From Thuidium tamariscinum (taxonomy: Eukaryota > Streptophyta > Bryopsida > Hypnales > Thuidiaceae), in contig OX344757.2 of NCBI GenBank assembly GCA_947034885.2, positions 20,082,001-20,146,000 of the forward strand: 64,000 nt of DNA. Direction: 5' to 3'. The position numbers and the translations under genes were made by a program. The stretch's first letter is position 1, and each line of letters starts with the position of its first letter. The notes beneath the pieces are model-generated. The model was not told the DNA's origin, made no database searches, and saw only the letters and a program-made list of their open reading frames with translations. Shown here one piece after another: positions 13,808 through 63,331 of this stretch.

Positions 13808-14758
13808 ATAACCCCTAAAGGTTTTTGACTATGTTTTCACCAAAATCGCTTCAAAACTGTCATTTTTTAGACATCTACCAAATTTTTAGAAAAAAACATT
13901 TTTGGACAAAATTAACCATAGGGTCTTTTAGAGCACAGTTTCAAGAAGATGTGGAAAAAATTTCAGCAATTTCTGTCGTGTGGATTGCAAGATATTAGTG
14001 TTTGAAGTGACAAAAATCATTTTTTCACCATTGCGGAAATCCGGGCAGCTGCACTTCAGAAGACCATATTTGTGTGGAAAAATGTCCAAAATGATTGTAA
14101 CTCTTTGGATTCATTTTTCAAGTGAAGTTGCTACATGCTTGAAAATTTTTAGATCATTTGGAATTGTACAACATACAGGAAAAAAATAATAAGTAGAAAG
14201 AAGTAGAAAATGAGCCAAAATTCTAAATTATTAACAATTTATTTATAGAGTTAAAAGAAGACAATTCCAATGGGTGTAATGTTGTATTACACAATATACA
14301 CCCAATGTTTTTATTCGTTTTCAAAAATATTAAAAATTGAATTGAATAAAGAATTTCAAACTTTTTTTGTAGTGTAGAGATTCTATAACTAGCCAAAACT
14401 ACCTCAAACTAAAAATCCTCATAACTTTTGACTCATTAATCAAAATGGAATGATTCAAAGCTTTCCATTTAGATAAAAATCAAAGAAACCAATTTCAAAT
14501 TTTAATTTTTTTAAAAGTAATTTTTAAAGAAGTTTTTTTTTTTGTCCGGGTTGCCCTCCGAGTAAAGAAAACAACATATCATGTCATAACTTTTTAACCA
14601 TGTAGTCAAAAGTTATGAAAATTATTGGGCCTTGAAGCTACTCCTTGGGCACATGTTGTGTAAAAATTTAAAAGAAAAAAAACAAAAACTCCATCCGTAA
14701 TGAGCTGCCCGAAATCACTATGTTGTCAAAAAATGCAGTTTGGTCCTTTAGGGGTTAA
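13808..14758 (-). mobile_element. TTAA-type element F1, ~951 bp, reverse orientation
   Basis: The left end reads ATAACCCCTAAAGG (the TTAA is mutated) and the right end reads GTCCTTTAGGGGTTAA. Internally it is the reverse complement of the element at 34044-34992 over its whole length. Shared landmarks are the phrase around GCAGTTTGGTCC at one end and ACCAAAATCGCTTCAAAACTG at the other. No ORF of note. It is a non-autonomous copy of the same family. Confidence 0.8.
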
Positions 14759-15559
14759 ATGTATTTATGTTATAACTTTTTAAAATGGGCCATTTAGTAT
14801 GTTAAGCTAATCCACACTACAACCCCAAAACATTACTGTTACACTTGAATACACCCTCAATTCTTCTCCAACCCATTTATTGTCAATCATAGTTCCGCTT
14901 TAGAACTATATCATATCCTTTTCATTCTAAATTGTTGGGTACATACAAAGACAGTGTTCACTTTTAGAGCAAACTACTATAGAAGGTTTTCAAGCAATTC
15001 TTCTAGATAAAAAGTAAAGAAAATAATGCTAAAATGGAGATCTTATTTCACATTCTTCTTAAGCGATAGTTTGTTTTCTAAGAAGCTCCTAATCTACATT
15101 CCTTTCTTCCAACTAGAGACGTGATTAGAGATTTATAGGGGTTGAGCTAATGTACATAGTTGGATTGACAATCACAACTAATTGAAGGATTGTCTATTTT
15201 CACTTGTAGACAAATGAAATTGTAAATATTTACAACAAAAATTTTATAAATAGAAAATTTATTGTTTTTTTATAAACTTTTATAGTCATAGTTAATAAAT
15301 TCTAAAGCATCCTATAGGTGCATCTTTGAAGTACCTTTTAATTAGAGAGATTCAAACCATTCACTAAACGCACTTGTATGATACTTGAAAGCATTTTGCA
15401 ATATGATCAAAGTTGGAATCATTTTGCAAAGTGATTCTAATCTAATGTCTATAAATCTAGAATTTAAATAAAATTCTACCAAAGTATTATTTTCCATAGT
15501 TTTTTAATGAATTATTTCTAAAATTTATTTTTAGTATCAAAAATCTTTAAATTTAAAAT
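14759..15559. other. AT-rich sequence, nothing recognised
   Basis: Very AT-rich sequence without conserved ORFs. It may contain old repeat remnants, but no ends or homologous copies within this window could be defined. Confidence 0.4.
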
Positions 15560-16012
15560 TAATGATTAAATTTTTAATATAAAATTTTACGCTAGGGTGT
15601 CCATTGCAAATTCTAGGATTGAGGGCTCTTGGAATAAGTCTCAAATATACTAAGTCTTGGAGAAAAAATCATATTAGAAATTCATTTAAAAGATTTGAAG
15701 AATGAGTTTCGAGAAGTTGTAAATTGATTCAAGTTATATATGTTACATCCTTTAACCTCATTGTTTTTGGCAACCAACTTTTTTGATTTGACATTTGAAA
15801 AAAGGATAAATGACTTGGCAAATTATTTTCATAGTTTTAAAACCCTCATGATTAAACATTGCAATATTTCAATCCATAAATTATGTTTTTATATTTTCTT
15901 TTTCAATGTGATTTCTAATATATTTACTTTGATTTTGTTTAGTTACAATTTTTTTTTAAATTGATAAAACTTATCAAAATGTTCAATTTAAAACAAATTT
16001 TCAAAAGCTCAT
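15560..16012 (+). repeat. diverged copy of the interior of element F6
   Basis: The stretch is alignable by eye to 40575-40915 and continues into 42660-42740. Shared landmarks are GAGGGCTCTTGGAATAAG (near 15630), TTGACATTTGAAAA and AAAACTTATCAAAATGTT. It lacks the 1.7 kb insertion found in F6, so it serves as an empty site for that insertion. Confidence 0.65.
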
Positions 16013-16050
16013 AATACTCCCTCCACTCCAAAATAGTAGTCCCTTTTGTT
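16013..16050 (+). mobile_element. single Stowaway-like terminus
   Basis: The sequence TACTCCCTCCACTCCAAAAT resembles the TA-CTCCCTCC terminus of plant Stowaway (Tc1/mariner) MITEs. It marks the point where homology to element F6 stops. No matching GGAGGGAG end was found downstream, so the copy is truncated or decayed. Confidence 0.45.
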
Positions 16051-62626: not shown

Positions 62627-62720
62627 ATTCTAGAAACTCTACCTAGTCCTCTTATCTTTGAAGGTATTGAGGTGGAACTTTAACTCTAAGCTTACAATGT
62701 CATACTTCATGTAATGTTGC

Positions 62721-62949
62721 TTGATCCTTGAAGGACGGACCGGTGGCCATGGAAATCGTGCATTTTGATACCGTCTGACATCGCCTACTTTGAAAGAGAC
62801 AAATATATTCATTGGAAGTCAAAGTAATGTAGAAGATCATCCCTTTCCACCTTCAATACCAAGGATGAAAAGTTGCATTTTTGTCCTAAAAGAAAGATTC
62901 TTTGTCATTCGAAGGACGCCAAACGTTTGCGGCGGTGTTCAAGGATTAA
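62721..62949. mobile_element. TTAA-type MITE, 229 bp, decayed ends
   Basis: It is the copy of the element at 63103 in the first tandem unit. Its left end is now TTGATCCTTGAAGG and its right end TTCAAGGATTAA, so each end carries point changes. Confidence 0.7.
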
Positions 62950-63102
62950 GGTAGAACCACCTATAAGCAATTGACCCCCCATTAGAATGGTTTTTTTTTT
63001 CCTACCTTTCAAAGTTGGGACTACTTTATCCTCTTATCTTTGAAGGTATTGAGGTGGAACTTTAACTCTAAGCTTACAATGTCATGCTTCATGTAATGTT
63101 GC

Positions 63103-63331
63103 TTAACCCTTGAAGAATGGACCGTTGGCCGTGGAAATCGTGCATTTTGATACCGTGTGACATCACCTACTTTGAAAGAGCCAAATATATTCATTGGAAG
63201 TCAAAGTACTCTAGAAGATCATCCCTTTCCACCTCCAATATTGAGGATGAAAAGTTGCATTTTTGTCCTAAAGGAAAGATTCTTTGTCATTCAAACGATG
63301 CCAGACGTATGCGGCGACATTCAAGGGTTAA
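63103..63331. mobile_element. TTAA-type MITE, 229 bp
   Basis: It starts TTAACCCTTGAAGAATGG and ends CGACATTCAAGGGTTAA: inverted ends bounded by TTAA. It is equal in length to the element in the PATROL1-like intron (2997-3225), and its right part (CCAGACGTATGCGGCGACATTC) resembles that copy's right end. Confidence 0.75.

Follow-up and report, generated by a model that had tools for sequence, protein, structure and literature searches.

In our reading, to which we give a probability of about 0.94, the TTAA-bounded elements of the window (the whole stretch of 64,000 nucleotides analysed here, part of contig C9 of a host assembly of 363,211,507 bases in 19 contigs) are non-autonomous members of piggyBac (MITEs, together with relatives whose interior has changed) hosted by a moss-like land plant, and their transposase would be supplied in trans by longer elements, about 5 kb in size, at other places in the genome. 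The earlier note had proposed a piggyBac-like family for these TTAA/CCC elements or, failing that, an undescribed superfamily, and the same genome does contain TTAA-CCC elements that carry a DDE_Tnp_1_7 domain. piggyBac itself is a known superfamily; what is unusual here is the host, that at least one family is young, that MITEs are abundant and that the elements are large. The elements of the window are listed below.

34044..34992, + strand: F2 MITE of 949 bp, TTAA-CCCCTAAAGGACC at the left end and GGGG-TTAA at the right end.
13808..14758, - strand: F2 MITE with 90.5% identity to the copy at 34044; its left TSD is now ATAA.
28406..30293, + strand: F2 MITE interrupted by a nested element; it starts with TTAACCT, not TTAACCC.
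28529..29505, + strand: TTAA element of 977 bp inside the F2 copy 28406-30293.
22437..22853, + strand: F2 copy truncated to its left part, aligning to F2 1-420 at 80%.
37551..37654, + strand: F2 left-end fragment, aligning to F2 5-104 at 75%; its TTAA is now TCAA.
40384..42759, + strand: 642-bp TTAA element plus a 1729-bp solo LTR insert.
40921..42649, no strand: solo LTR of 1729 bp, TGTAGA..TCTACA (TG..CA), with the 5-bp TSD TGGTC.
44461..46443, + strand: TTAA element of 1983 bp with the TIR CCCTTTAAGGACC.
63103..63331, + strand: 229-bp TTAA element, duplicated in tandem with its flanks.
62721..62949, + strand: second, tandem copy of the 63103 element, its ends decayed.
2997..3225, + strand: 229-bp TTAA element, one end of which has a 6/6 subterminal palindrome centred on bp 25.

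All complete TTAA-bounded elements (8 of 8) were confirmed in the letters of the window where the earlier note had placed them, including 13808 as a full-length copy whose left TTAA has mutated. The proposed bounds TTAACCC..GGGTTAA hold for the complete elements except at 28406, where the start is TTAACCT. Among the five broken ends that had been assigned to the family, those at 22437 and 37551 align to F2, and a search for a partner end or a family found none for those at 32755, 54287 and 16864. The idea of one family ranging from 229 bp to 2.4 kb did not stand: the window holds several families (F2, 28529, 40384, 44461, 63103 and 2997), and the 2.4 kb size is due to the solo LTR, shorter copies of the 40384 element without it being present in loci L019 and L021. 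A tandem duplication (62639-62938 and 63021-63320, 91%) lies just after a tRNA-Pro gene (62543-62615); it spans the flanks of 63103-63331, and the copies at 63103 and 62721 are thus one insertion. The 44461 element contains an internal palindrome of about 1.1 kb (44582-45676, 90% alike), the arms of which are similar to other repeats of the genome.

The absence of a transposase ORF from the window was borne out in its long ORFs and its two longest elements. Ten long ORFs of the window were examined for domains, and an F-box was the sole match. Transposase remnants were sought in 40384-42759 in six frames and in 44461-46443 in the three + frames, with stops written as X, and no Pfam match was obtained.

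TTAA is duplicated on insertion and is not a part of the element. In the interrupted F2 copy, the 28529 element reads CTTTAA-CCCC..GGGG-TTAAAG. Nine F2 stretches align unbroken across this insertion spot (copies with an insert there would break the alignment and are hence uncounted), and three of the nine (34044, L022 and L013) read TTTAAGG with a single TTAA, the others carrying changed letters. A second, independent nesting uses the same internal TTAA: the F2 copy C9:17453025-17453977 lies inside another F2, its left flank aligning to F2 9-127 and ending GTAGCTTTAA, and its right flank beginning TTAAGGCTC and aligning to F2 124-249. Empty F2 sites with one TTAA, together with these two nested insertions, indicate that TTAA is a true target duplication, as had been proposed, and the reading in which TTAA belongs to the element fails. 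In another neighbouring pair of F2 copies, the two are three bases apart.

A search of the genome with F2, which the earlier note had suggested, recovered the family and its exact ends. There were 43 matches, 40 of full length (F2 itself, at 100%, and 39 copies with 91-94% identity) and 3 covering part of the element, and this count comes from only 40 scored out of 9285 first-look candidates. TTAA stands on both sides in all ten other F2 copies that were read (10 of 10), with ends TTAA-CCCCTAAAGG on both sides. Judged from these matches, F2 is an abundant MITE family.

Genes for a piggyBac transposase, which on one of the note's two suggestions would lie outside the window, were found with the DDE_Tnp_1_7 profile in the same genome. 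At least 116 domains were scored, all above the cut-off (best E 5.7e-80); these 116 matches come from 657 candidates and are located on contigs C1-C10. The same profile gave 0 matches in 14 control genomes, which is a weak control as these are described merely as well-known genomes. Twenty transposase loci of about 10 kb were read, ten chosen for their tied score and ten others. Each of the ten tied-score loci contains a 5096-bp element bordered left and right by TTAA (10 of 10), and the flanks are different in all ten; 8 copies (including the reference) are identical and 2 have one base difference. Since these copies are nearly identical, the 5096-bp element probably transposed very recently and may still be active today; the near-identity covers the ten tied-score copies and is uninformative on the age of the remaining elements. 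One of these copies (locus L010, 1761-6856) lies precisely at the left TTAA of an F2 element.

The other ten loci hold further TTAA-CCC elements, nine of them 4.9-5.6 kb long, and their longest frames diverge, to about 30% identity. The limits of the element at L020 (7.9 kb) are less certain, and the frame of L019 is interrupted. In 39 further transposase loci, a GGGTTAA end was found in 26 (14 of 20 and 12 of 19) and was absent in 13 within the 701 bases read.

The 1009-residue ORF of the 5096-bp element contains DDE_Tnp_1_7 at residues 519-918 (E 5.7e-79). In a sequence search of the PDB (E 0.001), this ORF matched piggyBat and the transposase of 6x67 and nothing else, the best match being 9c0f (E 3.2e-27), by its PDB title piggyBat, an element of bat origin. 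The predicted fold of a relative, P0021 (65% identity over the domain), has piggyBat and piggyBac as its matches 1-3, in a model with a mean pLDDT of 58 that is good in the catalytic part alone. piggyBat is thus the top match by sequence and by fold, with just 22-23% identity over the fold alignment. Four aspartates (D223, D328, D444 and D447), which from the piggyBat alignment are presumably the catalytic residues, show no variation across the aligned set (13 of 13 sequences, of which this genome contributes 5). A Cys-rich C-terminus was recognised by eye in the aligned transposases, L027 and P0020 not reaching that far. The profile, the sequences of solved structures, the fold of the relative and the conserved aspartates support the assignment of the transposases to piggyBac, and the reading in which they belong to another superfamily fails.

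In L015 (2776-4330), about 500 residues of the transposase ORF precede the DDE domain, and a Pfam search finds nothing in them. An alignment of L009 with L025 spans 856 residues at 55% identity, indicating that the N-terminal extension is at least partly kept. A Tudor-like domain suspected there by eye is not supported, residues 1-69, 71-105 and 107-343 of P0021 being below pLDDT 50.

The window copies would be tied to this enzyme by the likeness of their tips, which is weaker for some families. In a comparison with 49 ends of transposase elements (p values from shuffled letters, uncorrected, 12 tests), the left tip of F2 shares 14 of 16 bases with L024_L, CCC included (p 0.001), and the left and right tips of 40384 share 14 of 16 bases each with L038_R, again with CCC (p 0.001 or less). 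Seven other window tips match at 12-13 bases (p 0.009-0.028), and the 28529 tip, like those of F2 left and 40384, stands above shuffled letters at p 0.022 or less. The right tip of F2 (p 0.063) and one end of 2997 (p 0.134) did not stand out against the 49 ends, and among these ends no transposase element with the full TIR of F2, that is, an autonomous parent, was found. From the sequences, the window elements were most likely moved by the transposases of this genome.

A short TIR starting with CCC is found in the elements generally, the window end at 28406 starting with CCT. The fourth base of the tip is T in 44461, 63103, 2997, L020, L023 and L027 and in the right ends of L009, L019 and L021; it is C in F2, 28529, 40384 and the left end of L009, and A in the left end of L022. 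For comparison, a CC[C/T]T tip motif is given for piggyBac in PMC2872659, and published piggyBac tips vary, including CCCA, CACG and CACT (PMC12732532, PMC10140906).

TTAA target sites are shared by more than one superfamily of DNA transposon. Sola3 has a TTAA target. Kolobok likewise duplicates TTAA (PMC9587614), so the window elements might be Kolobok and the piggyBac genes of the genome unrelated to them, a reading that gains from the missing exact transposase parent of F2 among the 49 ends. We consider it very improbable: Kolobok termini are 5'-RR..YY-3' according to the same source, whereas the complete window elements have CC..GG, and on these termini Kolobok was rejected; moreover, the tips of F2 left, 40384 and 28529 resemble those of piggyBac elements (uncorrected p 0.022 or less).

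A further feature of the ends is a palindrome. In the piggyBac of Trichoplusia ni (T. ni), a dimer of the Cys-rich domain binds a left-end palindrome at bp 17-33, with the minor groove centre at about bp 25 (PMC7351741). In this genome, the left ends of the transposase elements compared (11 of 11) each score 4 or more complementary pairs out of 6 when centred on bp 25.0, where the mean is 4.82 pairs, compared with 2.91 at the next-best centre and 1.5 over all centres. Of the 11 left ends, 10 carry 4-base arms separated by 7 bases vs 0.74 in shuffles, and 0 of 1000 shuffles reach this number; seven spacers were tried, of which spacer 5, a wider reading of this palindrome, is seen in 9, and the 11 ends are partly close kin and not independent, five having closely similar ends. 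The right ends of the transposase elements show no shared palindrome peak for centres 15-64.5 (best 2.45), in a scan that used the L022 end at 7607; this end has since been placed at 6868, where it resembles that of L039.

For the window itself, the palindrome at bp 25 is only suggestive. With spacer 7, all 16 window ends gave 3 vs 1.19 expected, a number reached by 100 of 1000 shuffles and not significant, and bp 25 ranks fourth among the palindrome centres of these 16 ends. If only the better-scoring end is counted for each of the six families in the window, the sum at bp 25 is the highest (22; next 21; mean 13.8). The pairs at bp 25 number 6 of 6 in 2997 and 4 of 6 each in 40384, 44461 and 28529, and F2 has 4 of 6 pairs at centre 24.5.

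This overall weakness of the bp-25 palindrome across the window ends, together with the right tip of F2, which beyond CCCCTAAAGG lacks a close counterpart in the 49 transposase-element ends, is what speaks for a new superfamily that converged on TTAA and CCC ends. Such convergence is highly unlikely in our view, as the piggyBac elements of this very genome share the TSD and the CCC tip and the left tip of F2 agrees with L024_L at 14 of 16 bases (p 0.001).

On the piggyBac reading, the full-length elements of this genome, about 5 kb long, encode a DDD transposase with a C-terminal Cys-rich domain. By analogy with T. ni piggyBac, this enzyme would bind the CCC tips and the subterminal palindrome at bp 17-33 and would excise the element at TTAA, probably seamlessly; the element would then be joined to a new TTAA and the target duplicated. 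Which enzyme moves which MITE family may be suggested by the likeness of their tips.

To place the transposases among their relatives, domain and profile searches and a tree were used. The domain search gave 26 relatives, of which the one named is from a tick (34%). The profile search gave at least 84 relatives, and all 10 named records among those listed are animal, at 27-36% identity; the nearest relatives among the matches listed are unnamed JGI and other environmental proteins (54-75%). In a tree of 72 rows, a branch supported at 99/91 separates ten moss and 21 unnamed rows, the 21 unnamed rows being interleaved with the moss transposase lineages, from seven named animal rows and 34 other unnamed rows. 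As placed by this tree, the transposases are one clade separate from the named animal rows. If the 21 interleaved rows came from other mosses, this pattern would be as expected.

The animal origin of every named relative could also suggest that the piggyBac genes are contamination of a plant assembly, for example from an arthropod. This is extremely unlikely: the transposase matches are spread over the 24-54 Mb contigs C1 to C10, the TTAA of an F2 element at L010 is precisely where a 5096-bp copy has inserted, identity to the named animal relatives is just 27-36%, and the transposases share their side of the 99/91 branch with the 21 unnamed rows. As for the host, the RuBisCO small subunit was found on C1 over two stretches (4 matches, best 1.2e-21), and the same search in the 14 control genomes matched in Synechococcus alone. 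For the F-box ORF of the window (23698-25140), named relatives are 4 among 19 matches, all from Ceratodon purpureus at 45-50% identity. These two results make a moss-like plant the host that fits.

The ends were also compared with shuffled sequences. TTAACCCYTWAAGG with at most 2 mismatches occurs 18 times in the window vs 2.27 expected, a count attained by 0 of 100 shuffles. For TTAACC pairs (ends within 3 kb, ungapped, shuffles keeping the dinucleotide content), 5 have at least 6 of the 8 next bases inverted, vs a shuffled mean of 0.11; four are listed elements and the fifth is 15752-17074. At least 10 of the 16 next bases are inverted in 3 pairs, all listed elements, vs a shuffled mean of 0.05. 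The F2 copies of the window fail these ungapped cut-offs. That TTAA and the TIRs are chance, or a simple-sequence artefact of an AT-rich window (64% A+T), is practically negligible given 0.05-0.11 pairs in dinucleotide shuffles vs 3-5 observed and the recurrence of F2 across the genome with exact ends.

The moss elements are like T. ni piggyBac (6x67) in the TTAA target, the CCC tips, the DDD core, the C-terminal Cys-rich domain and the left-end palindrome at bp 17-33 (PMC7351741). They differ from it in their length (about 5 kb vs 2472 bp in T. ni; PMC10140906), in the roughly 500 residues before the DDE domain and in right ends without a clear shared palindrome (centres 15-64.5). Coral CMITEs and AmiPB (PMC2872659) are a similar case of TTAA MITEs alongside a full piggyBac, and the coral tips CCCTTTAAGCCCTA and CCCTTTAACGCCC closely resemble CCCTTTAAGGACC of the window; unlike these, CMITEs have an animal host and are about 100 bp long, whereas the window elements without inserts measure 229-977 bp, and 44461 measures 1983 bp.

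For plants, a 2025 beetle piggyBac paper speaks of occasional occurrence and names red algae (PMC12732532), a fern paper counts 1230 PiggyBac-class elements amounting to 122 kb (PMC6890710), a review includes PiggyBac among plant superfamilies (PMC10794571), and a bee paper mentions piggyBac in plants in general (PMC10140906). Among the literature matches listed, no title or opening of an abstract reports piggyBac in a moss; the matching text of a moss genome paper (PMC10619864) uses "piggybacking" in a different sense and is no piggyBac report.

Taken jointly, these observations may mean that land plants, at least mosses, have a long-resident piggyBac clade of their own, with several lineages diverged to about 30% identity, jumping today, with thousands of MITEs and with larger elements that carry a long N-terminal extension, a view to which we give even odds. 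If it is true, the nearest unnamed environmental relatives (54-75%) would be other mosses. A near-identical piggyBac with an open frame, together with abundant TTAA MITEs, suggests that plant repeat surveys misfile the whole class. A native plant piggyBac would have potential for gene tagging and for studying how mosses tame piggyBac.

Other repeats were also observed in the window. Direct repeats (23300-23615 and 25208-25508, 84-88%) lie on both sides of the F-box ORF (23677-25143), and further repeats occur at 25574-25920 and 55506-55847 and, inverted, at 19504-20213. Three short inverted repeats (30518-30738, 37693-37915 and 21017-21231) resemble other small hairpin elements.
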